A DNA stretch of 64,000 nt, from positions 1 to 64,000 of the forward strand of contig SVSG01000002.1 of the NCBI GenBank assembly GCA_015064415.1, in the 5' to 3' direction. Below are positions 25,490 through 64,000 of this stretch, piece by piece. A model generated the notes under the pieces. It was given only the letters and a program-made list of their open reading frames with translations, was not told the origin of the DNA and searched no databases. Position 1 is the stretch's first letter. Every line of letters starts with the position of its first letter. This DNA comes from Oscillospiraceae bacterium (lineage in GTDB: Bacteria; Bacillota; Clostridia; Oscillospirales; CAG-272). The position numbers were made by a program, and so were the translations under genes.

Positions 25490-26429
25490 ATGCAATTTGT
25501 CCGTTCACTACGTCAAAGAATACTTGGGCGGTGAAAAAGTATTCCTCCTCCCCTTCCCAATAACATTGCAGGTAAAAAAGATAGCTTCCGTCTGCTAATT
25601 CATACTGATCTGCGGGGTCGGCGGCTACGTTGATCTGAAAGGGGAGTGCCCATGTTTGATTCGGCGGAATACGCGTGATTTCCTCGGGGAACCGCTGCCA
25701 CGTAGAATAGTGCTTGTATCTTGTATTAGCCATTTGAAGCAAAGCGGTATCATATTTGGGGTTATAATCGTTGAGATTCAGAATTTCCACGACGAGCGTT
25801 TTTTCGCCGTGATTATGCAAGCGGTACTCGTAATGAAACAAATGATGCTCGACGTTGGTGATGAAAAGCGACACCTTGCTGCTTTGGAGGCATCCTTCGG
25901 CAAAGTAAAGATCGCTTGGGCGGTCGGCTGGAATTTGGGATCCTTCGATGTTGAAATAGCCCACGAAATAGGATTTGTTTTCTGATCTTTGAATAATGTA
26001 AGTGCCGCTTTTATCCATTCCGGTGCTTTGGTCACCAAGCACCAGACGGTAGCGCCCGGCTGCAAGCGCCCTTGCAGATACGGTGAGACTGCCTTCTCGC
26101 TCGGAGAAAGCCGGAGCCCAAGAATCCCATATTATACCACCGATCAAGGGGTAATACACCCACGTATCGTTTTCCCACTTTTCTACGATGGGCGAAATGT
26201 TCATCATGGCAAGATTGCAGTCATAGCTTGTTTGGTTTATTATGCTGTAATGCAATTTTCCGTCTGCATAATAGATAGAATCCAAAAAGCGCAAAGAATT
26301 TTGCGTGATGCCATCCTTCACGACGGTTTCACCCGGAATCGGCGATGGCTCTTTTTCCACCGGCCCTTGCTGACAGCCGACGGCAAACAGCATGAGCAGG
26401 CAAAGTAAAAAAGCAAGGATGCGTTTCAT
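25488..26429 (-). CDS. tandem paralog 1: lipoprotein with Ig-like domains
   Basis: This 313-aa lipoprotein has a signal peptide MKRILAFLLCLLMLFAVGC with lipobox AVGC. After a Pro-rich spacer comes the family start VVKDGITQN. The first beta domain (about 45-165) has VEKWENDTWVYY and ends in AGRYRLVLGD. It resembles a Firmicutes Ig-like domain that I know as Big_14, from memory. A second beta domain (170-313) holds NVEHHLFHYEYRL and closes with FFDVVNGQIA. It is presumably exposed on the membrane outer face. The function is unknown. It is the last gene of the array. Its signal-peptide DNA is identical to that of paralog 2. Confidence 0.8.
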   Translation of the reverse strand: MKRILAFLLCLLMLFAVGCQQGPVEKEPSPIPGETVVKDGITQNSLRFLDSIYYADGKLHYSIINQTSYDCNLAMMNISPIVEKWENDTWVYYPLIGGIIWDSWAPAFSEREGSLTVSARALAAGRYRLVLGDQSTGMDKSGTYIIQRSENKSYFVGYFNIEGSQIPADRPSDLYFAEGCLQSSKVSLFITNVEHHLFHYEYRLHNHGEKTLVVEILNLNDYNPKYDTALLQMANTRYKHYSTWQRFPEEITRIPPNQTWALPFQINVAADPADQYELADGSYLFYLQCYWEGEEEYFFTAQVFFDVVNGQIA

Positions 26430-26482
26430 AGGTTTCTCCTTTCATAAGGTCGGGTGACGGTCTTTTTATGCAATTTTGCCGT
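26380..26482. repeat. 103-bp direct repeat, copy A
   Basis: The sequence from ACGGCAAACAGCATGAGC to CAATTTTGCCGT is identical to 27393-27495. It spans the signal-peptide codons and ribosome site of one gene, the 36-bp spacer, and the last codons of the next paralog. Confidence 0.9.
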
Positions 26483-27442
26483 CCTTGACCTCAAAGAAGA
26501 TGACAGCGTAAAAGAAGTTTTCCTCATCCCCTTCAAAGTAGCAGGGAAAACGGTAGAGATAGTGCCCGTCTTTGGTGGGAACATATCGGTCGGCGGCATC
26601 TCCGCCCACGTTCGAGCAAAGCGGTATTTTTAAGCTTTCACCCGGCGCGACGGTGCTACCGCCCTCGGGGAAGCGTTGCTGCCAATAGACGTGGTCTAAA
26701 TGCCCCTTTTCCTCATCACGGTACATCATTTCGTCGTAATAATCCGGTTCCAAGGGCGTGATGTCGCTTATGGGAATGATCAAATTTTTATCACCGGTGT
26801 TTTGGATGGAGAATTCGTAAAGGTACAGATGATGCTCGATGGCGGCGAGGGAAAGCGATACGTTTTTGCTTTGATAAACGCCCGCAGCGTAATAAATATG
26901 CGATGGAAAATCGGGATACACGGCGGCTTGCTCTTCGGTAATGGTGAAGTAGCCCACCCAATAATAACGCTCATCACTTCGTGTGACACGTGTGCTACCG
27001 TCAGAATTCATACTGAATATCTCATATCCGCTTACCAAACGATATTTTCCCGGGGTGACGGCTTGCAAATGCAAGGTGCGTGAAGCATCGGCATCTTTGT
27101 GAGCGGCAATCTTTTGCCAGACCTCTCTCGCAGAGCCGGACAGTAAGGGATAGTAAGTCCATTGTTCGTTTTCCCATTTTTCCACGGTGATAGAGTAGGG
27201 ACCGACTCCGCTGTCAACGTCCGTGTTGTTGAAGAACGTATAGTGAATTTTTCCATCGGCAAGGTAGATGTTGTCGATCTTGCGCCCCGTGATCTGGTTA
27301 AGCCCGTCCTCCTTGAAGGTTTCAAGCTTCGTGGTGTCGCATCTCCCACGTTGCTGTCGGGGGGAGTGTTTCCGCTTTCCTCCTGACATCCAACGGCAAA
27401 CAGCATGAGCAGGCAAAGTAAAAAAGCAAGGATGCGTTTCAT
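26466..27442 (-). pseudogene. tandem paralog 2: frameshifted Ig-like lipoprotein
   Basis: The start at 27442 encodes the same signal peptide as paralog 1 (LLMLFAVGCQ) and continues to about codon 36 (NVGDAT). The body of the protein (KLETFKEDGLNQITG onwards, ending FFEVKDGKIA) is in another frame. The track therefore shows a 136-aa ORF and a separate 330-aa ORF. One added base between about 27335 and 27364 restores a protein of about 325 aa. Position 27359-27364 is a G6 run on the plus strand. The body has intact family motifs and no other stops, so the break is recent, phase-variable, or a sequencing error. Confidence 0.75.
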
Positions 27443-27495
27443 AGGTTTCTCCTTTCATAAGGTCGGGTGACGGTCTTTTTATGCAATTTTGCCGT
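27393..27495. repeat. 103-bp direct repeat, copy B
   Basis: Perfect match to 26380-26482, offset 1013 bp. The 1-kb spacing equals one paralog gene. Confidence 0.9.
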
Positions 27496-28447
27496 TCACT
27501 ACGTCAAAGGTGACAACGGCGTAGAAGGGCAGTGCCTCCTCCCCCTCAAAGGCGACGGGGAGCAGATAGCGATACGTGCCGTCCGCAAGCTGATACAGGT
27601 CTTCGGGTACCCCGTGGATGTTGGATTGCAGATAAAGCGTCCATTCCGTATGGGGGGCAATTTTGATCGGCTCCTCGGGGAAGCGCTGCTCGAAACGGTA
27701 ATAACGCTCCGTTTTTCCGTTGCTTGTATAGTACATCTCGTCGCCTTCCGTTGTGAGCGCCTCGGTTCCCTTCATCAGCACCACAAGCGGTCGGTCGCTG
27801 TTGTTTTGCAGGCGGAATTGATAATGAAAAAGGTGATGCTCGACGTTTGCGATAGAGAACGCGACGCTTTTGCTTTGATAAACGTCATCGACAAGGCGTA
27901 CGTCAGGATCGGGATCATAATTCGGCACGTCTGCCTCGGTGATGGTGAAATATCCTACCCAGTAGGTTTTCGCTTCATCGAAGGTCAAGTGTTTGTTGCC
28001 CTTTTCATCTGTGGCGGTGCCTGTGTCACCCGCGATCAAGCGGTAACGCCCCGGCATCAGTTTGCGCGGGTAAATTTGCTTTTTGTAAGATCTTTGGGAG
28101 TTCGCCGCTATGCCATGTTGTTTGTGGCCGAGCGGTTCTCTGTCCACGAAAATCCCTCTTGGATTGAATAAAGCGTGGGTCACCCAGCCGTCCTCGCTCC
28201 AGCGTTCGGCGCGGGGGGATTCCATATGTTCGTCGGTATCGGCATAGACGTCGGTCTCGTTCACGTAGGTGAAGTGCAAGAGCCCCTCTTCAAACGAGGC
28301 GTTGATGTAACACAAGCTGTTTTGCGGGATGCCGTCCTTCACGACGGTGTCACCGGTCACTTGTGGCGTGTTGGGGTCGGATCCTTTTTCGCACCCAACG
28401 GCAAACAGCGTGAGCAGAGCAAGTAAAAGAGCAAGCAAGCGTTTCAT
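27479..28447 (-). CDS. tandem paralog 3: lipoprotein with Ig-like domains
   Basis: This 322-aa lipoprotein has a signal peptide with lipobox FAVGC. The family core follows: VVKDGIPQNSL, then AERWSEDGWVTH, PGRYRLIAGDTG, YWVGYFTITE, YQSKSVAFSIANVEHHLFHYQFRL, and the end VTFDVVNGKIA shared with paralog 1. It is the first gene after the leader/terminator region at 28463-28787 and has no room for its own promoter. Its transcription, and that of paralogs 2 and 1, should depend on read-through of that terminator. Surface location is implied by the signal. The biochemical role is unknown. Confidence 0.82.
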   Translation of the reverse strand: MKRLLALLLALLTLFAVGCEKGSDPNTPQVTGDTVVKDGIPQNSLCYINASFEEGLLHFTYVNETDVYADTDEHMESPRAERWSEDGWVTHALFNPRGIFVDREPLGHKQHGIAANSQRSYKKQIYPRKLMPGRYRLIAGDTGTATDEKGNKHLTFDEAKTYWVGYFTITEADVPNYDPDPDVRLVDDVYQSKSVAFSIANVEHHLFHYQFRLQNNSDRPLVVLMKGTEALTTEGDEMYYTSNGKTERYYRFEQRFPEEPIKIAPHTEWTLYLQSNIHGVPEDLYQLADGTYRYLLPVAFEGEEALPFYAVVTFDVVNGKIA

Positions 28448-28462
28448 AGGTTTCTCCTTTCC

Positions 28463-28497
28463 AAAACAAAAAGCGCATCGGACGGTGTCCGATGCGC
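28463..28497 (-). terminator. attenuator-type terminator before paralog 3
   Basis: In minus-strand RNA, GCGCAUCGGAC-acc-GUCCGAUGCGC is an 11-bp perfect stem followed by UUUUUGUUUU. It ends only 15 nt before the paralog 3 ATG, in the same orientation, so it lies within the leader rather than after a gene. Confidence 0.85.
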
Positions 28498-28752
28498 TCA
28501 GGAATTTCAGCTATGTTATCCCTCTCGGTGTTAATCTCGCGTCCGGGGTTGTCAAGCGTTTCGCTCGATCCGCGATGGCGGATCTGTCCCGCGCGGGATG
28601 GCAGATGAGTGGATGCCGTGGCATCTACCAAGCAGGGTATCTCACCAAAGGTTGGTGAGAACATAAGCATAGCTTTGCGTTTCTGTTGTTTCGCTGTGCA
28701 TCGGACTCACCCCTTTCTGTGATGGCGAGGAGGAGGTTTCCCCCTTGCTTGT
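28498..28752 (-). ncRNA. structured leader RNA with alternative pairing
   Basis: The predicted transcript from about 28752 folds into a chain of perfect hairpins. These are UCUCACCAA/UUGGUGAGA, GAUGC/GCAUC, UCCCGC/GCGGGA, GAUCCGC/GCGGAUC and AGCG/CGCU, before the terminator. The segment GUCCGAUGC (28706-28698) is complementary to GCAUCGGAC in the terminator 5' arm and could form an antiterminator. This is the layout of an attenuator. A stand-alone small RNA is the alternative. Confidence 0.6.
28642..28701 (-). CDS. putative 19-aa leader peptide
   Basis: This is a short ORF, MHSETTETQSYAYVLTNLW, with a ribosome site AAGGGGTGAG four bases before the ATG. Its start codon lies inside the GUCCGAUGC segment that can pair with the terminator arm, and its stop codon lies inside the first hairpin. 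Both positions fit control by ribosome occupancy. There is no strong run of one regulatory amino acid, so sensing of a specific tRNA is not indicated. It is too short for the ORF track. Confidence 0.45.
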   Translation of the reverse strand: MHSETTETQSYAYVLTNLW

Positions 28753-28758
28753 ATTCAT

Positions 28759-28787
28759 ATTATAGCAGAAAGGAGCGGTATTGTCAA
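28759..28787 (-). promoter_or_regulatory. promoter of the leader and paralogs 3-2-1
   Basis: Minus strand TTGACA, a 17-nt spacer and TATAAT: perfect consensus. Confidence 0.82.
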
Positions 28788-28923
28788 GGCGGTGTTGTGA
28801 AGTTTGTGCAACGAAATCAAAATGAAAGCGACTAAAATGTGCAAATTGCCCATTTTTTGCCGAAGAAAACTACTTGACGATAGAAAAATTCTTTGCTTGG
28901 AATGCTTGTAATAGAAAGCTTTT

Positions 28924-29844
28924 TCAATCGAAGTGATCAAAAATGTGGTTGGCTCCGAAGACATTGGGCGGGGCTTGGGGCTCCTCGGTCTTTGTCGCGT
29001 TCTCAAAGTAGTAGGGAATATTGACGCGATAGCGCCCCGTCGGAGGCGGCGCGATCGGCTCCATTGTATAGCGCTCGTTGTAAATGGGGCGCTCCAAATG
29101 AAGCGTTTCACCCGGGGCCACCGTGGTGTCCTCCAATGGCAGCATATAATAATCGTGGGTGCCGATCTGATAGAAATAACCGTTTTGATAGCGGGAAATG
29201 CGGAGGTTGGAAAGCTGTAGGGTCAGCGGGCTTTCGCTGTTGTTCGTAAGAGTCAGCAGCAGCTTTGGCTCGGTGCCGCCGACAAGGGAGGCGGTGAAGT
29301 CCACCTGTGCGTGCTTTTTCACGCCGTTATCGTAGTATACGTATTGGGGCAGAGAGGTCGGGGCTTGCTCCTCGGTGATCTCAAGGTGCCCGATGATATA
29401 GGTCTCATTCTCATCAAAGCGCAGATAGGTGCTGCCGTTTTCGTCCTGCACATAGCGGGTAGAGCCAAAGGAAAGACGGTATTTCCCCGCAAGGCGATCG
29501 GTGTTGGCGGTGACGGAGAAGCTACATTCCTGCTCGGAGAAGGGGGAGAGAACGTATGCCACAGAATGACGCGAGCTCCAAAGAGCAAAGCTGACCCATT
29601 CTTCACCGACCAGTTTTTCAATCGAGGGCTTTTCACCGTAATAAACGCGGCTTCGGGAATGGTTGACCAGCGTGTAATAGACGGTGCCGTTTTCATAGCG
29701 GACGTCTTTGATTTTAACGCGGTCGTTTTGTGTGATCCCCTCAGACACGTAGGTGTTGCCCCTTGTGAAAAAGAGGAAGGCACCAAGGGAAATAAAGAGC
29801 AGGCAAAGCGCAACGGTAACGATCAGGGTTACTTTCTTTTTCAT
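28924..29844 (-). CDS. tandem paralog 4: membrane-anchored Ig-like protein
   Basis: This 306-aa protein has an N-terminal hydrophobic segment (residues 5-27, VTVALCLLFISLGAFLFF) but no lipobox cysteine at its end, so it is probably a signal anchor. The mature part starts with VSEGITQNDR, matching the KDGITQN start of paralogs 1-3, and keeps AGKYRLSFGS, DENETYIIGHLEITE and LLLTLTNNSESPL. It is closest to paralog 5. Long nucleotide tracts near 29280 and 30220 are almost identical. It ends 135 bp before the leader promoter with no clear terminator, so read-through into the leader is possible. Confidence 0.8.
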   Translation of the reverse strand: MKKKVTLIVTVALCLLFISLGAFLFFTRGNTYVSEGITQNDRVKIKDVRYENGTVYYTLVNHSRSRVYYGEKPSIEKLVGEEWVSFALWSSRHSVAYVLSPFSEQECSFSVTANTDRLAGKYRLSFGSTRYVQDENGSTYLRFDENETYIIGHLEITEEQAPTSLPQYVYYDNGVKKHAQVDFTASLVGGTEPKLLLTLTNNSESPLTLQLSNLRISRYQNGYFYQIGTHDYYMLPLEDTTVAPGETLHLERPIYNERYTMEPIAPPPTGRYRVNIPYYFENATKTEEPQAPPNVFGANHIFDHFD

Positions 29845-29873
29845 CGGGTTTCTCCTTTCATTTGCGGTCAGGA

Positions 29874-30782
29874 TCAGTCGGAATGGTTGAATTTACAGTC
29901 TGCGAAAAATAGAGTAGGCAGGATCGGCGGGCCCATGACATCGGGCTCTTCAAATTCATAAGGGATCTTGACACAGTAGCGCCCCGTCGGGGGTGGGTCA
30001 ACGGGAGGCGGGTCGAAAATTCCTTTTGCAAGGGGAAGCTCTGCCGTATAGGTCTCGCCGGGGCTGACGGTCACGTGCTCAGTATCGGGCAATTTGTAGC
30101 CGCAGCTGCTGAAGGTGGCCTGATGATAGCGGAAGATCTCCAGCGCGGAAAGCTGAAGGATGAGCGGCTTTTCGCTGTTGTTGGTGAGGGTGAGCAGGAG
30201 CTTTGGTTCAATGCCGCCGACAAGGGAGGCGGTGAAGTCCACCTGTGCGTGCTTGCGCACGCCGTTGTCCTCATACGCGTTGGCGGGGAGGCGATTGGGG
30301 GATTGCGTTTCGGTGATCTCAAGGTAGCCGACAAGATAGGTCTCGTTCGGGTCAAAGACGGCGAAAACGGCACCGTTTTGGTCCTGCACGTAGCGCTCGG
30401 CACCAAAGGATAGGCGATATGTGCCTGCAAGCGCGTCGGAATTTCGGAAGGAATAGGAGTGCTTGGTCTCGCTGAAGGCGGGCAGGCGCAGGGGGGCACA
30501 GTTGTGACCGGCGGTCTCCACGTTGACCCAGCTGTCGTCGGCCTTCTTTTCCAGAATGACGCATCCGCTCACTTGCACGGCGTGGGGCGTTTCATTGATC
30601 AGGGTGTAGTGGATGCTCCCCTTTTCAAAATAAACGTTTTCCACGCGCAAGCGGTCGTTTTGTGTGATCCCCTCGGAGACGTAGGTCCTGCCCCTTGTAA
30701 AGGCGAGGAAGGCGAAAAGGGAACAAAGAAGCAGACAAAGCACGCCTGCGGCAATCAGAATGATTTTTGTTTTTCTTTTCAT
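29874..30782 (-). CDS. tandem paralog 5: membrane-anchored Ig-like protein
   Basis: This 302-aa protein is the first gene of the array in transcription order. Residues 7-28 (IILIAAGVLCLLLCSLFAFLAF) form a membrane anchor. VSEGITQNDRLR opens the exported part. The first domain carries LEKKADDSWVNVE and AGTYRLSFGAERYVQD, the second HAQVDFTASLVGG and LLLTLTNNSEKPLILQLS. It shares all hallmarks with paralog 4, 29 bp downstream, and is presumably cotranscribed with it. GGAGACC precedes the ATG. No consensus promoter is visible upstream. Confidence 0.8.
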   Translation of the reverse strand: MKRKTKIILIAAGVLCLLLCSLFAFLAFTRGRTYVSEGITQNDRLRVENVYFEKGSIHYTLINETPHAVQVSGCVILEKKADDSWVNVETAGHNCAPLRLPAFSETKHSYSFRNSDALAGTYRLSFGAERYVQDQNGAVFAVFDPNETYLVGYLEITETQSPNRLPANAYEDNGVRKHAQVDFTASLVGGIEPKLLLTLTNNSEKPLILQLSALEIFRYHQATFSSCGYKLPDTEHVTVSPGETYTAELPLAKGIFDPPPVDPPPTGRYCVKIPYEFEEPDVMGPPILPTLFFADCKFNHSD

Positions 30783-52845: not shown

Positions 52846-53868
52846 ATGTATATTTTAGGAATGGAAAGCTCTTGTGACGAGACCTCTGCCGCCGTGGTGC
52901 GCGCAAAGGACGGGCGTCTTGAGATCCTTTCCAATATTGTGGCATCGCAGATCGAAACCCACCGTCTGTACGGCGGCGTGGTGCCGGAGATCGCCAGTCG
53001 CGCCCATATCGAGGCCGTGACGGGGATCACCCGCGAGGCGCTGGAGGGGGCGGGGATCTCGCTTTGTGACGTGGGGGCCGTGGCGGTCACTGCGTTCCCG
53101 GGCCTCATCGGCGCGTTGCTTGTCGGCGTGAATTTCGCCAAATCCCTGGCATTTGCCAATCATATCCCGCTGGTGGCGGTCAACCATATCAAGGCGCACG
53201 TGGCGGCGGCCTATCTTTCCTGTGAGGCGCTGAAACCGCCCTTTCTTGCCGTGGTGGTGTCGGGGGGGCATACCTCGATCTACGACGTGCGCGATCCGAT
53301 CGATTTTGAGGAGATCGGCGCCACGCGCGACGATGCCGCAGGCGAGGCGTTCGATAAGATCGGCCGTGTGATCGGGCTGCCCTATCCCGGTGGGGCCGCA
53401 CTGGACAAGCTGGCCTACGAGGGGGATGCGCATGCCATCAAGCTCCCCTCGCCCGCGCTTGGAAAGGACACGCTGGACTTTTCCTTCAGTGGCCTCAAGA
53501 CGGCGGCGCTGAATTACATCAATCATTGCAATCAGCAACAGCTTGAGGTGCCGCGCGCGGACCTTGCCGCCTCCTATACCGAGGCGATCGTCGCGGGCGT
53601 TGCCGCGAAGGCCGAGCAGGCGTTGTTGCAGACGGGCCGCAAAACGCTGGTGCTGGCAGGGGGCGTTGCCGCCAACTCGCATCTGCGTCGCCGATTGGAG
53701 AGCGTGTGCGCGGCACACGGCGTCAGCATGTGCGTGCCGCCCCTGTCGCTTTGCGGGGATAACGGTGCGATGGTGGCCGCGGCGGGCTATTTTGAGTATG
53801 AGGCGGGGCATTTTGCCGCGACCGACCTCAACGCCTCGGCGCAAGACCCCGCCAACTGGCGTGTTTGA
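52846..53868 (+). CDS. tsaD: tRNA N6-adenosine threonylcarbamoyltransferase
   Basis: TsaD transfers threonylcarbamoyl to A37 of ANN-reading tRNAs, working with TsaB and TsaE. The 340-aa protein has the family opening ILGMESSCDETSAAVV, the metal-binding NHIKAHVAAAYL near residue 110, VVVSGGHTS near 138, and the nucleotide-binding GAVAANSHL-like GGVAANSHLRRRLE near 270. It starts at ATG 52846 after GGAG. The 335-bp gap after it carries the DnaA-box cluster. Confidence 0.95.
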   Translation: MYILGMESSCDETSAAVVRAKDGRLEILSNIVASQIETHRLYGGVVPEIASRAHIEAVTGITREALEGAGISLCDVGAVAVTAFPGLIGALLVGVNFAKSLAFANHIPLVAVNHIKAHVAAAYLSCEALKPPFLAVVVSGGHTSIYDVRDPIDFEEIGATRDDAAGEAFDKIGRVIGLPYPGGAALDKLAYEGDAHAIKLPSPALGKDTLDFSFSGLKTAALNYINHCNQQQLEVPRADLAASYTEAIVAGVAAKAEQALLQTGRKTLVLAGGVAANSHLRRRLESVCAAHGVSMCVPPLSLCGDNGAMVAAAGYFEYEAGHFAATDLNASAQDPANWRV

Positions 53869-53945
53869 GCTTTGTCAAGCCCTTTTTGCCCTTTTTTGCA
53901 AAAAAATATAATTTCGGCGTTTTGGATAAACTTGAAAAAAATAAG

Positions 53946-54130
53946 TTTTCCACATGACTTTTCCACAGCTTTGTGGAAAAGCCGCCCCTTTTACACATCT
54001 ATGTAAAGATTTACGGGCACTTTGTGAAAAAAAGATGCAAAAAAAGCAAAAAGAAGCAAAATAAAAGCCTTTTTCTGTGGAAAAGCTTGTTGAAACTGTG
54101 GATAAGTGCGTCTGTCAACTCTGTGGAAAA
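53946..54130. promoter_or_regulatory. cluster of six DnaA boxes
   Basis: TTTTCCACA occurs at 53946-53954 and 53959-53967. Its reverse TGTGGAAAA occurs at 53972-53980, 54076-54084 and 54122-54130. The perfect box TTATCCACA (as TGTGGATAA) lies at 54097-54105. Boxes 2 and 3 form a perfect inverted repeat. Between the two groups lies an A-rich tract (about 54024-54068). The rest of the 335-bp tsaD-rex gap is A/T-rich without an ORF. Multiple 9-mers of this type mark origins or DnaA-titrating/regulating clusters. Confidence 0.75.
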
Positions 54131-54203
54131 CCGCAGATGTGTCAAAAATGACTGTTTCAAGGGGTATTGTGCAAAACCACAAAAGGCATTGTGAGGATGA
54201 AAA

Positions 54204-54881
54204 ATGGAAGAGAAAATGAAGAAAAACGAACAGAAGACGGCACATAAGACAGAATACGTCAGCCCCGCCGTCATCAAGCGCCTGCCGCGCTATTTTCGCT
54301 ATCTGCGCGAGCTGATCCGTGAGGGCACGATGCGCGTCAGCTCCAGCGAGCTTTCCGCAAGGATGCATATGACGGCCTCTCAGATCAGACAGGACCTTAA
54401 CTGCTTCGGCGGCTTCGGTCAGCAGGGGTACGGCTATAACGTGCAGTACTTATACACCAAGATCTCCGAGCTTCTGGGCGTGGGAGAGGGCTATTCCGCC
54501 ATCATCGTGGGGGCGGGAAATCTCGGCCGCGCGCTGATTCGCAACTCCATGTTTGAAAAGCGCGGCGTGGACGTCATTGCCGCCTTTGACGTGGACCCGC
54601 AACAGATCGGGCGAAAGCTGGACGGGGTCGTGGTGCGCTCTATGGACGAAATTGCGGATTTTTGTCAACGGCACACGGTGGATATCGCCGTGCTGACCCT
54701 GCCCAAGGAGTCCACCGCAGACGTGGTGCGCACGCTTTCCCGCGCAGGGGTGCGCGCGTATTGGAATTTTACCAGTACGGACCTGCAGGACATTGACCCC
54801 ACGTGCATTGTGGAGACCGTGCATCTGGGAGATTCGTTGATGACGCTGAGCTACCGCTTGCGGAGCAAGGAGGACGTATGA
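54204..54881 (+). CDS. rex: redox-sensing transcriptional repressor Rex
   Basis: Rex senses the NADH/NAD+ ratio and represses fermentation and electron-transport genes when NADH is low. The 225-aa protein has an N-terminal winged helix (VIKRLPRYFRYLREL...SSSELSARMHMTASQIRQDL) with the Rex recognition stretch LNCFGGFGQQGYGYNV. The Rossmann domain contains AIIVGAGNLGRAL near residue 98. The first 18 residues are a charged extension. It is the first gene of rex-dnaD-dnaI and lies behind the DnaA-box cluster. GAGGAT precedes the ATG. Confidence 0.95.
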   Translation: MEEKMKKNEQKTAHKTEYVSPAVIKRLPRYFRYLRELIREGTMRVSSSELSARMHMTASQIRQDLNCFGGFGQQGYGYNVQYLYTKISELLGVGEGYSAIIVGAGNLGRALIRNSMFEKRGVDVIAAFDVDPQQIGRKLDGVVVRSMDEIADFCQRHTVDIAVLTLPKESTADVVRTLSRAGVRAYWNFTSTDLQDIDPTCIVETVHLGDSLMTLSYRLRSKEDV

Positions 54882-55837
54882 AGATCGGCTTTTGCTTTGG
54901 AGAGCGCGTAGCGGTTTTGCCCGCCGCCATCACGGCGCATCTGGACAAGGCATCCAAAAAGGACATTCAAATTTTGTTGGAGCTGGCGGCGGAGCCGCTG
55001 AGCTTCCATGATTTCGCCGCCGCCTGTGCGGGCGTTGCCGCCCGCGTGGGGTGCAGCACGGCAGAGATCGACGCCGCCGTTGCCTTCTGGCGCGGAACGG
55101 GCGTGCTTACCATTGGGGAGGCGGAGGCCCCCGCGACCGAGCCCGCCGCCACCAGGCAGACAAGCGCGGTCGCGCCGCGCGTGCTGTCGGACAAGGGGCT
55201 GCCCACCTACAGCACGGAGGAGCTTTCCGACATTCTTTCCCAGCGCGCGGAGCTTGCACAGCTGTTGGACGATTGCCAGCAGGTGTTCGGCAAGATCTTC
55301 AACACGGGCGAAATTGCCATCATTGCGGGGCTTCTGGATTATCTCGGCCTTGACGGCGAGTACATTTTGCTTTTGCTGACGCATTGCCGCAATATGGAGA
55401 AAAAATCCTTACGATACGTGGAGAAAATGGCGATCACGCTGCATGACGAGGGCATCCACGGCGCAAGAGAGCTGGAAACAAGATTGCAGAATATCGAGCT
55501 GATGGCCAAGGCCACGGGCCGCGTGCGTGCCATTTTCGGCATTACCGCCCGCGCACTGACCTCTAAGGAAAAGGGATTGCTGGAATCCTGGATCTGCAAG
55601 ATGAAGTTTGATGACGTGATGATCACGCGTGCTTACGAGATGACGGTGGACGCCATCGGCAAGCCGTCGATGCCCTATGCCAACAAGATCTTGGAGCGCT
55701 GGTTTGCGGACGGATATCGCACGATCGCGGACGTGGACAAGGCGCTTGACGAGTACAAGAAAAAGAAAAATAACGGATCCAGCTTTGACGTGGATGAGTT
55801 TTTCGAGGTGGCCTTGCGCCGCACCTACAAGGACTAA
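54878..55837 (+). CDS. dnaD: DnaD-domain replication initiation protein
   Basis: DnaD remodels DNA at the origin and recruits the helicase loader after DnaA. The 319-aa protein has an N-terminal DnaD-type winged-helix region (residues 15-85), a variable linker, and two C-terminal DnaB/DnaD domains. These carry IFNTGEIAIIAGLLDYLGLDGEYILLL (start near residue 143) and the YANKILERWFADGYRTIADVD motif near 270, which resembles the YxxxILxxW core of that domain. The ATG overlaps the rex stop (ATGA), so expression is coupled to rex. Confidence 0.88.
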   Translation: MKIGFCFGERVAVLPAAITAHLDKASKKDIQILLELAAEPLSFHDFAAACAGVAARVGCSTAEIDAAVAFWRGTGVLTIGEAEAPATEPAATRQTSAVAPRVLSDKGLPTYSTEELSDILSQRAELAQLLDDCQQVFGKIFNTGEIAIIAGLLDYLGLDGEYILLLLTHCRNMEKKSLRYVEKMAITLHDEGIHGARELETRLQNIELMAKATGRVRAIFGITARALTSKEKGLLESWICKMKFDDVMITRAYEMTVDAIGKPSMPYANKILERWFADGYRTIADVDKALDEYKKKKNNGSSFDVDEFFEVALRRTYKD

Positions 55838-55846
55838 GGAGCAGTT

Positions 55847-56824
55847 ATGGCATACAACAGAGAAAATTACGCCCGTATCCGTACGGAGTTTCAAACGAAA
55901 TATATGCTGGCAGAGGAGGAGGCCGCGCGCCGCACCGAGGCGTTGCACCGCAAATCTCCCGATCTGCGTGCGATCGACCGCGCACTTTCCCAAACGGGCA
56001 TCAAAATTGCCATGGCCGCGCTGGGCACGGGCGAGGAGTACAAGGAAAAGCTTGACGCCGTGGAGAAGGAAAACATGGAGCTGCAGGCCCGCCGTGCCGC
56101 GATCCTTGCACAGCTTGGCTATCCTGCCGACTACACCAAGCCCCCGTATGAGTGCGAGAAGTGCAACGACAGCGGCTTTGTCGGCACGAAAATGTGCGAT
56201 TGCATGCGCCGCGAGCTGGTGCTGGCGGCGTTTGAGAGCTCGGGCATCGGGTCGCTTTTGCGCACGCAGAGCTTCGACAGCTTCAAGCTTGACTATTATC
56301 CCGCAGGGGAAACGCGCGATCTGATGCAGAAAAATCTGTCGCTCTTGCGCGAGTACGCGGAGGAGTTTTCACCGCAGTCGGACAGTCTTATTTTCTGCGG
56401 CCCCACGGGGCTTGGCAAAACGCATCTTTCCACGTCGGTGGCGCGTCGCGTGATCGAGCGCGGCTTTGATGTGTACTACACTACCGCGTTGCAGATGTTT
56501 GCGGATTTTGAGCACGCGCGCTTCGGCACGGATATGGGCATGCAGACCACCGTTTCCCTGGAGCGTTATACCTCCTGCGAATTGCTGATCCTGGATGATC
56601 TTGGCACCGAGGTGACCAACCAGTTTACCAATTCCTGCCTGTACCTTGTGATCAACGAGCGCATCAATAAGCACCTGCCCACCATCATCAACACCAACCT
56701 GACGGGCAAAGAGATCAAGCAAAGATATACCGACCGTATCGCCAGCCGCATCCTTGGGGATTTCAGACCGTTTTTGTTTGCGGGGACGGATATCCGCCGT
56801 TTGAAATTGAGCGAAAAAGCATAA
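55847..56824 (+). CDS. dnaI: helicase loader DnaI/DnaC-like ATPase
   Basis: This AAA+ protein loads the replicative helicase at origins and stalled forks. The 325-aa protein has an N-terminal helical part, a zinc-binding set CEKCNDSGFVGTKMCDC near residue 102, Walker A FCGPTGLGKTH near 180, Walker B LLILDDLGTE near 246, and an arginine-rich end (DRIASRIL). The layout matches DnaI of Bacillus, where the N-terminal zinc domain contacts the helicase. It starts 9 bp after dnaD behind AAGGAG. Confidence 0.9.
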   Translation: MAYNRENYARIRTEFQTKYMLAEEEAARRTEALHRKSPDLRAIDRALSQTGIKIAMAALGTGEEYKEKLDAVEKENMELQARRAAILAQLGYPADYTKPPYECEKCNDSGFVGTKMCDCMRRELVLAAFESSGIGSLLRTQSFDSFKLDYYPAGETRDLMQKNLSLLREYAEEFSPQSDSLIFCGPTGLGKTHLSTSVARRVIERGFDVYYTTALQMFADFEHARFGTDMGMQTTVSLERYTSCELLILDDLGTEVTNQFTNSCLYLVINERINKHLPTIINTNLTGKEIKQRYTDRIASRILGDFRPFLFAGTDIRRLKLSEKA

Positions 56825-57353: not shown

Positions 57354-57410
57354 TGGGGGCAACCTTTTGCGAAAGGTTGCCCCCACACCCCCATCCAAAA
57401 GCTTTTGCAC
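57354..57410 (+). repeat. 3' hairpin element, copy 3
   Basis: GGGGGCAACCTTTTgcgAAAGGTTGCCCCC is fully paired, followed by CACACCCCCATCCAAAAGC. It is in the orientation of the gene ending at 57344. Confidence 0.78.
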
Positions 57411-57437
57411 AGGAGGGAAGGGCGGGTAGCCGCTTCG

Positions 57438-57509
57438 CTTGCGAAATATCTTGAAGGTGTGCTTAAATATCAAAAAGTGCCAAAACGGTATGAGAAAACG
57501 GCAGTTTTT
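57438..57509 (+). repeat. 72-bp dispersed repeat, copy A
   Basis: The unit runs from CTTGCGAAATATCTTGAAGG through AAAAAGTGCCAAAACGGTAT to GGCAGTTTTT. It matches 58465-58536 with few substitutions. Its core (GTGCC-AAACGGTATGAG) recurs at about five other sites in the window. Confidence 0.7.
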
Positions 57510-57529
57510 GTTGCGGAACGCTTTGTGCA

Positions 57530-58060
57530 CGGATGGATATATATCGCATATGGCGGTGTAGGGCGAGGGCTTGCTCCCGCCGGATATGTATCGCGGATGA
57601 CGGGCGAACAATGGTCGCCCCTACGGGTTTGTGCATAGCCGTTTTGTGCATCGCAAAGACTACTCACCCACCGCTTACGCGGTCCCCCCTCCCTCACAAG
57701 GGAGGGACTACTGTAACCCATTCTTTTCACAACAGACGGAACGTTTTAGGAAATTTCAAACAAAAGTGAAATTTTACCGTCTATTGAAGAAAGCGAAAAC
57801 GTTGTTTGTCCCTCCCCAATGCAGGCTGTCCTCGCCCACGCAAAGCGTGATGCGAGCACGTCGACACTCCGCTACGCGTCGGTCGCGGGAGGGTGGCACC
57901 CGTAGGGTGACGGGTGAGGATGCTCTGGCGCGAAGAATTTTGTGCATACCCGCCGTTTGTGCATCGCGGATGGCGGGCGATTTGGCTCGCGAAGCGAGGT
58001 GGGGAATGACCCCTACGGTTTGTGCGCTGTTTTCAAAAACAAAAAAATTTCTCTTTTTTG
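57530..58060. repeat. repeat-rich gene-free stretch
   Basis: No gene is supported. The ORFs listed here are short and overlap on all frames. REP-like units with GCGGATGACGGGCGA...TCGCCCCTACGGGTTTGTG lie at 57587-57640 and 57955-58022. Palindromes ACCGCTTACGCGGT and CCCTCCC-tcacaa-GGGAGGG lie at 57673-57712. The stretch 57825-57920 holds more short GC-rich inverted repeats. Confidence 0.6.
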
Positions 58061-58063
58061 CGT

Positions 58064-58276
58064 CATCCTGAGCGAGCGAACAAACGCGAGCCGAAGGATC
58101 TCGCCCGCGCAAAGCAAGCGCGGGCGCGGTGTGTATGCGCCAAACTCCTGCATTAAATGTTACTTTGCGTGCATGGAACTGCAACGCTTTTACTTAGATC
58201 CCGCAACGGCTTCGCCTTGCGGTTTGCTCGCTTGCTTCGCTGCACCTCGCAAACTTCGACTGCGCTCAGGATGACA
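58064..58276. repeat. MITE-like inverted-repeat element
   Basis: TCATCCTGAGCGAGCG at the left end mirrors GACTGCGCTCAGGATGA at the right end, about 210 bp apart. Internal fragments GAAGGATCT and AACTTCGACTGCG are typical of a widespread REP/MITE type seen in many bacteria. There is no transposase inside. Confidence 0.55.
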
Positions 58277-58280
58277 CGGA

Positions 58281-58444
58281 CGGTTATGCATCGCGGATGG
58301 CGGGTCATTCGTGAATGACCCCTACGGGTTTGTGCGCAGCCGGTTATGCATCGCGGATGACGGGCGACCAATGGTCGCCCCTACGGATCTGTGCGAAGCC
58401 GTTTTGTGCATCGTGAATGACCCCTACGAGTTTGTGCGCAGCCG
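58281..58444. repeat. tandem array of 60-bp REP-like units
   Basis: There are three units with a 60-bp period, beginning at 58281, 58341 and 58401. Each starts with about GCATCGCGGATG, then a hairpin, then CCCCTACGGGTTTGTGCGCAG. The hairpin arms differ but stay paired: GGTCATTC/GAATGACC in unit 1, GGGCGACC/GGTCGCCC in unit 2. Unit 3 is shortened. Confidence 0.75.
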
Positions 58445-58464
58445 AGGATGCGGAAAGCACTTTG

Positions 58465-58536
58465 CTTGCGAAATATCTTAAAGGCGCGCTTAAACATCAA
58501 AAAGTGCCCGAACGGTATAAGAAAACGGCAATTTTT
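58465..58536 (+). repeat. 72-bp dispersed repeat, copy B
   Basis: Second copy of the unit at 57438-57509, reading CTTGCGAAATATCTTAAAGG to GGCAATTTTT. Confidence 0.7.
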
Positions 58537-58576
58537 AACAAAAAAGGATGCGCATTGAACACGCATCCTTTTCATT

Positions 58577-58634
58577 GTGTAAAAGGTTTTGGAAGGGGGT
58601 GCGGGGGAGCCCTTTTTTCAAAAGGGCTCCCCCG
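58577..58634 (-). repeat. 3' hairpin element, copy 4 (after the KDG-kinase-like gene)
   Basis: On the minus strand GGGGGAGCCCTTTTgaaAAAAGGGCTCCCCC is fully paired, then GCACCCCCTTCCAAAACC. It lies 18 nt after the stop of the 58652-59674 gene in that gene's orientation. Confidence 0.78.
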
Positions 58635-58651
58635 CCACACATGCCTTTCCC

Positions 58652-59836: not shown

Positions 59837-59866
59837 TTGACACGCCCTTGGAAATTGTGTTAGAAT
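59837..59866 (+). promoter_or_regulatory. promoter of the first beta-helix/PHP gene
   Basis: TTGACA, an 18-nt spacer and TAGAAT. A GC-rich self-complementary stretch (GCGCGCCGCGGGCGCGG) follows in the leader. Confidence 0.6.
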
Positions 59867-59927
59867 GGATAAAAAGCGCGCCGCGGGCGCGGTTTCGGCA
59901 TTTTTGCTTTCAAAGGAGGAAGAGTTT

Positions 59928-62180
59928 ATGTTGCCATTGCCTAAGGGTTATTATGCCGTTGCGGCAGATTTTGAAAATGCCCCGAAGGATCAATTTACAT
60001 ACAAGGGCGTGTGCTATGCCGTTGAGGAGGGCGTGAATCTGTTTGCCACAGCACCGGAGGCGGATGCCGTTGCCAACGAGATCCCCGAAACTGTGCTGGA
60101 GGGCTTAAATTACGAGAAATTTGACGCCCCCGTGCTGCTGTTTTCCGTGGGTACGCACCGCATCGATAACCTCAACCCCACAAGCTCGCGCTATCTGCTG
60201 GGTGAAAAGGCGGGCGTGAACCCAAATCTCACTCCCGCGCAATTTGGGGAGCTGCCGCCCCTGAACCCCGAGCGCGCCGATGCCGAAAGCGAGTCGATCA
60301 TGTACGGCGGCAACGCTGCGGGGAACATCCGCCCGCAGGATGCCTCGGTGGAGCTCTTGGTGATCGACGGCTTCTATAACCAAAAGGCGCGGCTGTTCGA
60401 CCGCCGCATCAATGCCACGGGTAAGTGCTTTGTGGCCCAGAAAAATATCGTCTATATCGGCCCGTGGGGCAAGCTGCACAACCTCTTTTCGGGCAGCCGC
60501 CAAGGGTACGATCTGCAGCGTGAGGTGCTTTTACAAAACGTGCGCTTTGAGCACTACGCGGGCAAGGGCCACGGCGGCGTGTTCGCGTATATGTCCACGC
60601 AAAAGGCCACGTTTGACAATCTTGTCTTCCACGATACCGACGTGGTGTTCGGCTTTACCGAGATCTCGCGCAACACCTCGGCCTGCCCCGCCAATCTGGA
60701 ATGCGCGGAGATCTGTATCAAGGATTGCTATTTCGGCGAGATGCGCGGCGAGAACGGCGTGATGGTCAATTTGCAGCAGCGCCCCGATCGAAGCGTGAAA
60801 ATGACGGTAGAGCGCTCGGTGTTCCGCAACGCATCGCTTGTCGGTGACTCGCCCTTGAATTTCCATATGGCAAACGAAAATTGCGCCCTTACGGTGTCGG
60901 AGTGCCTGTTTGAGGACACCCGTGGCGCGGATGCCGCGATCACCCTCTTTGACGGGGAGGGCGCCGTGCTGAAGGGGTGCGAGCTCAAGGGCTTTGCGGC
61001 AGAGTGCCGCACCCAGCCCTCCTGCGTGCGAGAGGCGCCTGCCTCCATCCTTTTGCAGGAGGAGGATTTTGAAAGCGGTACCGAGGACAGCCACGTGATC
61101 GTCGGCACGAAGCATGCGGATTTCAGCGATCTTGCCGCCTGCTATGAGGGCTGTAACGTCTATCGCGGCGACCAGCACGTGCACACCTCGTGCGGCGGGC
61201 GCAGTGACGGCAAATTCCCGATGTCGGATTGGGTGGCGCGCATGGACGAGCTCGGCGTGGATTTCGTGGCGGTCGTGGACCACCGCCAGATGCGCGGATT
61301 TTTCCTGCCCGAATGGAATGAGGAGCGCTTTATCATGGGCTCCGAGCCGGGCACGAGTTTTTTGGAGCCCCACGGCTGTACGCACAGCAGCGGCTTCCAT
61401 TACAATATGCTGGTGCCGCATCCGTACGGCCTTGCGATGATACTGGCCAATTTCCCGGAATTTGAATTTCGGGGTGACGAGCTGACGGGTACGTTCAGCT
61501 ATCCCAAATTCACCCGCGAGCGCTTTCTCGAGCTCAGCGAGTACGTTCACTCGATCGGCGGTATGATGGTGCACGCGCACCCCAAGATGATCATGGCCGC
61601 CGACGATCCGCTTGCCTACTATTTCGGGGAGCATTCCTTCATCGAGACGGTGGTCGGCTCCTACGCTACGGCGTATTCCTTCAAGAGCCATCAGCTCTGG
61701 GTGGATATTCTGGCGCGCGGCAAGCACGTGTACGCGTCGGTCGGATCGGATTCGCACCGCGATCCGAGCAACGGGGCGGTGGCGACCTTCTATTCAAAGG
61801 AGCGTCACGTTCGCACCTTCTTCCCCCAGATGCGCGCGGGCAACTTCACCGCAGGCGCCGTGGGCATTCAGATGTGCGTGGACGGTCAACCGATGGGCAG
61901 TGAGCTTGCCTATCGCGAGGGGCAGGTGCTGAAGATCCGCGTGGGCGATTTCTTCGCGCCCGTGTTGAAGGACGACAACGCGTACGAGCTGCGCGTGTAT
62001 AGCGACAAGGGATTGGTGTATTCCTCGCTGTTTGACGGCAAGGAGCCCCAGTATCTTGCCATCAGGGCACAAGCGCGCGCGTTCTACCGCGTGGAGGTGC
62101 TGGATCTGGTGGCGCACCGCCGCATTGCCGCGGGCAACCCGATCTGGTTGGATAAAGAAGAAACGGCGGAAGCCGAATGA
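59928..62180 (+). CDS. beta-helix/PHP fusion protein 1
   Basis: This 750-aa cytosolic protein has no signal peptide. Residues 1-390 look like a right-handed parallel beta-helix: regularly spaced short strands with VLLQNVRFEHY, TFDNLVFHDTDVVFG, EICIKDCYFGEM and LTVSECLFEDTRG. Residues 410-660 are a PHP metal-dependent phosphoesterase domain with DQHVHTSCGGRSDG (from 415), VVDHRQMRG, VHAHPKM near 549 and GSDSHRDPS near 606, so the metal ligands are intact. The last 80 residues are beta-rich. The substrate is unknown. The ATG at 59928 follows AAAGGAGG. The track start is 21 codons too long. Confidence 0.78.
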   Translation: MLPLPKGYYAVAADFENAPKDQFTYKGVCYAVEEGVNLFATAPEADAVANEIPETVLEGLNYEKFDAPVLLFSVGTHRIDNLNPTSSRYLLGEKAGVNPNLTPAQFGELPPLNPERADAESESIMYGGNAAGNIRPQDASVELLVIDGFYNQKARLFDRRINATGKCFVAQKNIVYIGPWGKLHNLFSGSRQGYDLQREVLLQNVRFEHYAGKGHGGVFAYMSTQKATFDNLVFHDTDVVFGFTEISRNTSACPANLECAEICIKDCYFGEMRGENGVMVNLQQRPDRSVKMTVERSVFRNASLVGDSPLNFHMANENCALTVSECLFEDTRGADAAITLFDGEGAVLKGCELKGFAAECRTQPSCVREAPASILLQEEDFESGTEDSHVIVGTKHADFSDLAACYEGCNVYRGDQHVHTSCGGRSDGKFPMSDWVARMDELGVDFVAVVDHRQMRGFFLPEWNEERFIMGSEPGTSFLEPHGCTHSSGFHYNMLVPHPYGLAMILANFPEFEFRGDELTGTFSYPKFTRERFLELSEYVHSIGGMMVHAHPKMIMAADDPLAYYFGEHSFIETVVGSYATAYSFKSHQLWVDILARGKHVYASVGSDSHRDPSNGAVATFYSKERHVRTFFPQMRAGNFTAGAVGIQMCVDGQPMGSELAYREGQVLKIRVGDFFAPVLKDDNAYELRVYSDKGLVYSSLFDGKEPQYLAIRAQARAFYRVEVLDLVAHRRIAAGNPIWLDKEETAEAE

Positions 62181-62185
62181 TCCCC

Positions 62186-62224
62186 TGCGCGGGTGCACGC
62201 ACGTGCACCCGCGCATTTTAATTT
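62186..62224 (+). terminator. terminator between the two beta-helix/PHP genes
   Basis: GCGCGGGTGCAC-gcac-GTGCACCCGCGC, 12 bp perfect, then ATTTTAATTT. Confidence 0.85.
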
Positions 62225-62245
62225 GATAAAATATCACAAAAAGGG

Positions 62246-62274
62246 TTGACACGTCCGAAATGCTATGTTAAAAT
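62246..62274 (+). promoter_or_regulatory. promoter of the second beta-helix/PHP gene
   Basis: TTGACA, a 17-nt spacer and TAAAAT. Confidence 0.7.
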
Positions 62275-62280
62275 GGCACT

Positions 62281-62302
62281 AAAGTGGCCAAAGTGCACTT
62301 TT
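62281..62302 (+). promoter_or_regulatory. palindromic operator candidate
   Basis: AAAGTGgccAAAGTGCACTTT: the perfect 12-bp palindrome AAAGTGCACTTT plus one extra direct half site, lying just after the predicted transcription start. Confidence 0.4.
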
Positions 62303-62330
62303 ATTCTATATTCCAATGGAGGAAATTGCT

Positions 62331-64000
62331 ATGCTGCAGCTGCCCAAGGGGTACTATGCCGTACAGTCGGACTTTGAAAATGCCCCCAAGGATCAATTTA
62401 CATACCGCGGTGTGACCTATGCCGTCGAAGAGGGCGTCAACCTGTTTGGCACGCCGCACGAGGCCTGCGCCGCCGCCACCGAGACCCCCGACACCGTGCT
62501 GGAGGGCCTGCCCTACGAGAGCTTTGCTTACCCCGTATTGCTCTTTTCTACGGGCGAGCACCGCATTGATAAGCTGGGGATCACGGCACCCTGCATCTGG
62601 CTTGGCGAAAAGGCGGGCATCTCCCCCAACCTGCCCGCGCCGGAGAAGACCGAGGCACCCCTTTTCAACGAGGAGCGCGCCACGGAGGAAACCGAAAGCG
62701 TCATTTACGGCGGTTACTGGTACGGTGCCATGCGCATCACCGGCCCCGCTGTGCCGTTTTTCATGATCGACGGCTTCTATATGAAGAAATCCCGCTTCTA
62801 CGACAGCCGCCCCACGGGCGAGTGCGACACCGAGATCGTGGTGCGCAACGTCTATCATACCTCCCCCTGCCTGCACACCATCTATTCCTTTGACGGTCTG
62901 CGCGCCGAAAGCCCGATGCACCGCAGCGTTCTTTTTGAGAACGTGAGACTGCAAAAGGACTTCGACGAGCTGGGCTACGGGCGTCTGTTTATGTCCTTTG
63001 CCTCGAACAAGGTCACCTTCCGTAATCTTTGCATCGACGGCACCACCCAGCTCTTTGGCTTTACCACCATTTCCCGCGCCTCCAGAAACCTGGCAGGGAA
63101 CAGTGAGCTTAGCGAATGCACCTTTGAGGATTGCTATATCGCGGGCCTTGGCGGCGAGAACGGCATTGCCTTCAGCTGTATGGGCGCCGTAGAGCGCGGC
63201 TTTGTGATGCGCGCCACGAACTCCGTTTTCAAGAATGCGGCAAGAGTGGGCGAGGCCGCCTTCCAGCCCAATTTGGAGAACGACAAGTGCCGTCTCACGT
63301 TGACGGACTGCTATGTGATCGACACGCGCGGCGGCGCAAAGGCCGCTGTGGCCATTCACGGTAAGGGCGAGAACGTCCTGCTTGAAAATTGCACGGTCGA
63401 GGGCTATGAGACCGAGGTCATGCACGTGACCCCGCCCCCCACGAAGGCACCCGATTTTGTGAAGAGCACCCGTCGCTCCCGCATGACCAAGACCGCTGAC
63501 CCGCACCGCGTGATCGGTACGGACAAGGCGGATTTCACGGCGTTGGACGCGTATTACGAGGGCTGTAACCCCTATTACGGCGATCTGCACACCCACTCGA
63601 ACAGTGGCGGAACCAGCGACGGTAAGACGCCGCTTGCCGATTGGGTACCCAAGATGGATGAGCTTGGCATGGACTTTGCCGTGATGGTCGACCACCGTCA
63701 GATGCGCGGCTACTTCCTGCCCGAGTGGGATGACACCCGCTTCCTTTACGGCACCGAGCCCGGTGCAAGCTTTACCGACCTTGCACACCTGCCCAACAAC
63801 ACCTTCCACTATAATATGATCTTCCCGCACAAGTACGGCCTTGCCATGGTGCTGGCGAACTTCCCCGAGTTCAAGTTCCAGGGCGACGAGCTGACCGGCT
63901 CCTTCACCTATCCCAAGTTCACCAAGGAGCGCTTTATCGAGCTGAATACCTACATCCGCTCGATCGGCGGTATGCTGGTGCACGCGCACCCAAAGCTCCT
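62331..64000 (+). CDS. beta-helix/PHP fusion protein 2 (3' end outside window)
   Basis: The ATG at 62331 behind GGAGG opens a frame of 556 codons that runs off the right edge, so the ORF track does not list it. It opens like protein 1 (LQLPKGYYAV-SDFENAPKDQFTYRGV) and keeps the beta-helix part. The PHP motifs seen so far are DLHTHSNSGGTSDG near residue 419, MVDHRQMRGYFLPEW and LVHAHPK at the end. It is a tandem paralog with its own promoter and a candidate operator, so the two copies may be induced by different signals. Confidence 0.8.
   Translation, partial: MLQLPKGYYAVQSDFENAPKDQFTYRGVTYAVEEGVNLFGTPHEACAAATETPDTVLEGLPYESFAYPVLLFSTGEHRIDKLGITAPCIWLGEKAGISPNLPAPEKTEAPLFNEERATEETESVIYGGYWYGAMRITGPAVPFFMIDGFYMKKSRFYDSRPTGECDTEIVVRNVYHTSPCLHTIYSFDGLRAESPMHRSVLFENVRLQKDFDELGYGRLFMSFASNKVTFRNLCIDGTTQLFGFTTISRASRNLAGNSELSECTFEDCYIAGLGGENGIAFSCMGAVERGFVMRATNSVFKNAARVGEAAFQPNLENDKCRLTLTDCYVIDTRGGAKAAVAIHGKGENVLLENCTVEGYETEVMHVTPPPTKAPDFVKSTRRSRMTKTADPHRVIGTDKADFTALDAYYEGCNPYYGDLHTHSNSGGTSDGKTPLADWVPKMDELGMDFAVMVDHRQMRGYFLPEWDDTRFLYGTEPGASFTDLAHLPNNTFHYNMIFPHKYGLAMVLANFPEFKFQGDELTGSFTYPKFTKERFIELNTYIRSIGGMLVHAHPKL

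Follow-up and report, generated by a model that had tools for sequence, protein, structure and literature searches.

A widely recurring DnaA-box array behind tsaD in Bacillota, a probable DnaA-titrating locus outside oriC

Why do six binding sites (boxes) for DnaA, the initiator of chromosome replication, lie together between tsaD and the rex-dnaD-dnaI genes of a clostridial genome, and what would DnaA do there? The window analyzed here is a 64,000 nt stretch from an Oscillospiraceae bacterium (CAG-272; GCA_015064415.1, contig SVSG01000002.1, positions 1-64,000); the full contig is 151.8 kb long and belongs to a draft genome of 2.25 Mb that is 81% complete. A sequence-only reading of this window described six boxes within 185 bp, did not consider a chromosomal origin the first choice, favored a DnaA-titrating or DnaA-regulated cluster, and pointed to a similar cluster near gcp (tsaD) in Bacillus subtilis. 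All six 9-mers of the form TTWTCCACA are present as described, at 53946-54130, between the tsaD stop at 53868 and the rex start at 54204, so that the array begins 77 bp past the tsaD stop. Profile matches confirm the identity of the neighbors, namely tsaD, rex, dnaD and a dnaI-type loader gene, all on the forward strand (Table 1).

Table 1. Genes and sequence elements of the tsaD-rex region (window coordinates)
Feature	Coordinates	Strand	Evidence
tsaD (gcp)	52846..53868	+	TIGR03723 match above cut-off
DnaA box 1, TTTTCCACA	53946..53954	+	exact match; 13 bp from box 2 in 19/19 genus members, at most 1 mismatch
DnaA box 2, TTTTCCACA	53959..53967	+	exact match, genus alignment, genus spacing
DnaA box 3, TTTTCCACA, perfect inverted pair with box 2	53972..53980	-	exact match, genus spacing
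Variant box TTTTACACA, fits TTWTNCACA	53989..53997	+	exact copy not conserved (genus alignment)
Variant box TTTTTCACA, fits TTWTNCACA	54023..54031	-	not conserved (genus alignment)
A-rich tract, tandem repeat with ~10-bp period (AAAAAGAAGC), between half-arrays	54029..54061	no strand	
DnaA box 4, TTTTCCACA, 104 bp from box 3	54076..54084	-	exact match, genus spacing
Weak DnaA box, top strand TGTTGAAAC, abuts box 5	54088..54096	-	genus alignment; same module in other families
DnaA box 5, TTATCCACA	54097..54105	-	exact match, genus alignment
DnaA box 6, TTTTCCACA	54122..54130	-	exact match, genus alignment
Variant box TTTTGCACA, inside TTGTGCAA motif	54168..54176	-	genus alignment
rex, redox repressor	54204..54881	+	Pfam PF06971 and PF02629
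dnaD-type primosome gene	54878..55837	+	Pfam PF07261 DnaB_2
dnaI/dnaC-type helicase loader	55847..56824	+	Pfam PF01695, PF00308

The perfect inverted pair noticed previously consists of boxes 2 and 3 (arms 53958-53967 and 53972-53981), and the A-rich tract is likewise found where it was reported, between the two half-arrays; its phased A-tracts (54029-54061) could bend DNA. A search with the general consensus TTWTNCACA finds nine boxes in the tsaD-rex gap, i.e., the six numbered boxes and the three variant boxes of Table 1 (53989+, 54023- and 54168-), and these three, along with the weak box at 54088-54096, were overlooked in the first inspection. The weak box reads TGTKGGAAN in relatives and, abutting box 5, gives a three-box module with steps of 12 and 9 bp that is kept in the genus. 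The TTGTGCAA motif (54167-54176) ahead of rex is kept by most genus members and might be bound by DnaA or else form half of a Rex operator.

A scan of related gaps had been proposed at the outset. Each of the 19 tsaD-rex gaps examined in the genus has the six boxes at fixed spacing, whereas the DNA between them diverges. In the 19 aligned gaps, the commonest base has an average share of 98% in box columns vs 59% in the remaining intergenic columns. The box spacing in the genus is 13, 13, ~104, 21 and ~26 bp. The long spacer measures 103-105 bp in 17 genomes, and the other two have 93 or 94 bp, about one helical turn less; boxes 5 and 6 are 25-27 bp apart, or 17 bp in two genomes; and the loci L050 and L053 contain a one-mismatch site at 84/85 bp, ahead of box 4, with box 4 itself at 104/105. 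Because the spacers change by about 10 bp with nothing in between, these few events suggest that helical phase may matter. The sequence of the A-rich tract is not conserved in the genus; the distance between the half-arrays is.

That the boxes are an artefact of chance or AT composition, or else an RNA element (terminator or riboswitch) mistaken for boxes, is hardly credible. The whole 64 kb is expected to contain 0.79 TTWTCCACA matches (mean of 100 window shuffles), no shuffle reached six, and 18.5 kb of sequence 3' of alaS, taken as a control from 30 genomes in the phylum set, contain 0 boxes. The motif itself is not in excess genome-wide (81 occurrences in 2.25 Mb vs 78 for the reversed control); the tsaD-rex array is the sole such cluster in the draft genome, with at most two boxes per 500 bp elsewhere. 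A hairpin could form from boxes 2 and 3; however, no terminator-like site and no Rfam match at the gathering score were found, which led to the rejection of an RNA element, and the inverted pair is missing from most arrays of other families. Numerous boxes on either side of an A-rich tract might also bring to mind a chromosomal or accessory replication origin, but such an origin is very improbable at this site. The GC skew along the entire 151.8 kb contig does not switch at the array, with positive blocks on both sides and a single, distant 8 kb block that is marginally negative, and the DnaA-trio pair (TAGTAG/CTACTA) occurs in none of the 19 genus tsaD-rex gaps. The dnaA gene is on another contig, C28, where a complete oriC was found: the dnaA-dnaN gap has four boxes and holds TTTTCCACAGTTTCCACACCCCCTACTACTATTACTACTAAATTATT, which combines boxes, a run of C, the trinucleotide repeats of a DnaA-trio and AT-rich sequence in the order reported for origins of Firmicutes (PMC7561715). 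The array shares with the Bacillota oriC (dnaA-dnaN) the same boxes and their head-to-tail arrangement but differs in having neither a DnaA-trio nor a skew switch and in not being located beside dnaA or dnaN. The initial preference against an origin is thus upheld, and the origin hypothesis was rejected on account of the skew and of the oriC located elsewhere.

Beyond the genus, TsaD was searched for in relatives, in the class and the phylum, and in a second class centred on G317, which is taken to be Bacilli from its place in a single-gene FastTree of TsaD; most of the genomes sampled across Bacillota are drafts, and taxa outside the named loci are carried as codes. A scan for exact 9-mers within 600 bp 3' of the tsaD stop identifies at least three boxes in 112 of 325 usable loci, partly chosen by match score, compared to 0.0 expected from dinucleotide shuffles; altogether, the 325 regions contain 566 boxes vs 23.4 in the shuffles. 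Three or more boxes at a locus are seen in 61 of the 157 sampled Bacillota family codes, some of them in the presumed Bacilli, and 80, about half, have no box behind tsaD. The density of boxes is 2.9-3.9 per kb behind tsaD vs 0.14-0.19 per kb in tsaD and the upstream DNA (0.99 vs 0.14 per kb for the 80 named loci, mostly from gut Clostridia). Named examples include Brevibacillus reuszeri (L324), B. fulvus (L345) and Kroppenstedtia guangzhouensis (L338), with 4, 3 and 5 boxes behind tsaD, respectively. The pattern of two same-strand boxes has 31 matches in 20 complete genomes vs 3 for the reversed control, most of these genomes having been picked for boxes already seen behind tsaD, so that the count shows the rarity of the pair elsewhere and not an unbiased rate; 10 of the 31 matches are directly behind tsaD, in seven genomes, and others are at or near dnaA.

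One orientation of the boxes dominates (68 vs 2 families or named loci), and a triple with spacing of 9 + 42-45 bp is present in 15 families of different classes vs 0.55 with randomised positions (maximum of 4 in 500). The orientation bias and the triple argue for common descent or a common constraint. The array is nevertheless patchily distributed, with boxes absent behind tsaD in Lachnospiraceae, many Oscillospiraceae and Clostridium loci, and since the trait changes about 42 times on the TsaD tree (vs 73 when shuffled), loss or independent gain of the array appears to be frequent. A fixed distance from oriC was rejected because the tsaD-dnaA distance does not distinguish genomes that have a cluster from those that lack one (Mann-Whitney p 0.36). 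The genes behind the array, as read from their translations by eye, are rlmB-like, CBS-domain, transglycosylase, GntR, radical-SAM, ABC-F (ydiF-like) and others; rex-dnaD downstream of tsaD was found only in the window's own family, and several families of the G317 class have a convergent ydiF as the neighbor, as in B. subtilis. With neighbors this variable, a fixed downstream partner gene was rejected as well, and because the downstream genes differ, the array follows tsaD rather than a regulated gene.

In B. subtilis, ywlC, which we take to be tsaC, is a second t6A gene bordering a DnaA-box cluster. The first is gcp (tsaD), and the cluster there, to which the sequence-only reading had pointed, is real (PMC4447404), the shared placement being far wider in Bacillota than had been guessed. 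The gcp(tsaD)/ydiF region belongs to the DnaA-box clusters that lie outside oriC (Okumura 2012, as cited in PMC5295017 and PMC13220808) and is the fourth-listed DnaA-binding region in vitro, with the two oriC regions first (Smith & Grossman 2015, PMC4447404). It has 10 boxes, binds ATP-DnaA with a Kd of 0.15 uM, favors the ATP form 16-fold at 55 nM, and separates ATP- from ADP-DnaA more strongly than oriC does (PMC4447404). Deletion of six B. subtilis clusters together causes early initiation, which is partly relieved by one restored cluster (PMC5295017; PMC13220808); because the strong effect requires deletion of all six (PMC5295017), a single cluster may have a small effect. Like gcp/ydiF, with its ~10 consensus boxes within 300 bp, the array has several boxes within ~300 bp at the tsaD 3' end and outside oriC. 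It differs in its ++- / --- inverted layout of mostly TTTTCCACA boxes and in being located ahead of the co-directional rex-dnaD-dnaI genes and not between two convergent 3' ends. The datA, DARS1 and DARS2 loci of Escherichia coli, which tune initiation, are also DnaA-box clusters outside oriC but differ in location and in their helper-protein dependent nucleotide switching. The E. coli tsaD was rejected as a counterpart given that no boxes are found near it.

The best explanation, to which we assign a probability of roughly two in three, is that the array titrates DnaA, as a DnaA-box cluster outside oriC that has been kept widely and corresponds in position to gcp(tsaD)/ydiF. Titration is the best reading because the array follows tsaD and because of the B. 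subtilis data on binding, non-regulation and the six-cluster deletion; of the two readings initially preferred to an origin, a titrating or a regulated cluster, the former is the better supported. Several DnaA molecules would bind cooperatively on head-to-tail boxes (spacings of 9, 12, 21 and 42-45 bp), the two half-arrays would work together from the same face of the DNA as a single complex, and binding at the array would lower free (ATP-)DnaA and so restrain re-initiation at oriC; perhaps, then, titration is effected by a phased multi-DnaA complex, and the tsaD-linked arrays would share descent. A pure gene-dosage timer might require a set distance from oriC; the distance between tsaD and dnaA is variable (0.07-0.48 of the chromosome), which counts against this explanation.

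Array-bound DnaA might instead repress or activate the rex-dnaD-dnaI operon, a feedback of DnaA on its own initiation partners that was suggested from the window sequence. Box 6 ends ~74 bp upstream of the window's rex (78-116 bp upstream in the majority of relatives), much of the family has dnaD or rex-dnaD downstream of tsaD, and most of the other B. subtilis clusters are sites where DnaA regulates genes (PMC8203912). The array resembles the promoters that DnaA regulates in B. subtilis (sda, ywlC, yqeG and dnaA) in that DnaA boxes are upstream of a gene; unlike at those promoters, a search of the sigma-70 consensus type detects no sigma-70-like promoter in 53800-54260, and Bacillota retain the array even at places without a gene start downstream. 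Elsewhere, tsaD-linked arrays precede unrelated or convergent genes, and with the longest downstream ORF being convergent in 17 of the 63 loci outside family code f1, the role that the arrays share cannot be control of an adjacent gene's promoter. Furthermore, the gcp/ydiF cluster sits between two 3' ends (PMC4447404) and is absent from the list of directly DnaA-regulated B. subtilis genes (PMC8203912), and the genome G031 (L070) keeps tsaD-rex-dnaD without any boxes there. Taken as the main function of the array, promoter control is therefore unlikely: DnaA control of dnaD and dnaI is not supported as a general role, and control of rex-dnaD-dnaI is a possible secondary hypothesis that is limited to the window's family, a role in the genus included. 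It is also conceivable, albeit with quite low probability, that the array is not a passive sink but a DnaA-nucleotide switch, similar to datA (DnaA-ATP hydrolysis) or DARS (ADP release). The fixed geometry and the spacer changes of about one helical turn suggest a defined nucleoprotein complex, and gcp/ydiF discriminates ATP- from ADP-DnaA beyond oriC (PMC4447404); against this, the datA and DARS loci as well as IHF are reported to be absent from B. subtilis, where the control of DnaA is attributed to oligomerisation and not to nucleotide state (PMC13220808; PMC5295017), and E. coli tsaD has no boxes nearby.

Titration by a tsaD-linked cluster can be extended to a more speculative scenario, which we hold tentatively and at somewhat below even odds: an ancestral DnaA-control locus would have been fixed behind tsaD early in Bacillota, kept as a helically phased complex through changes of neighbors, and later also wired to dnaD-dnaI in the window's family. 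If this is true, the locus would be a phylum-wide counterpart of datA and DARS. Most of what is known about the extra-oriC clusters of B. subtilis comes from the six-fold deletion, and they are often regarded as minor; recurrence at tsaD in 61 of 157 families, with fixed geometry, implies a site under selection. The tsaD-linked array thus offers a comparative handle on the restraint of DnaA in Gram-positive bacteria that lack Hda, SeqA and datA, and its distribution predicts which lineages rely on the cluster and which have lost or moved it. No earlier report of the tsaD-linked conservation was found among open papers.

Several observations were made alongside. In G031, where the tsaD-rex gap has no boxes, eight TTTTCCACA boxes are located between gyrB and gyrA (contig C38; L434:534-1119), and this cluster opens with the same ++- motif as the tsaD array, with spacing of 13 and 12. 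It is possible that the gyrB-gyrA cluster is a relocated array, and this one genome suggests that the array can move independently of dnaD. In the window, interspersed repeats at 57364-58637 are mostly outside recognised genes, and diverged copies are present at 45.2 kb of the window, on contig C16 and on C28, which is also the contig with dnaA. The region 59865-63995, together with L103, contains a tandem family of large related ORFs with ~70% DNA identity between copies, the first of which has no Pfam match. Adjacent similar ORFs at 26299-30741, with 74-88% DNA identity over parts, represent a local gene family.
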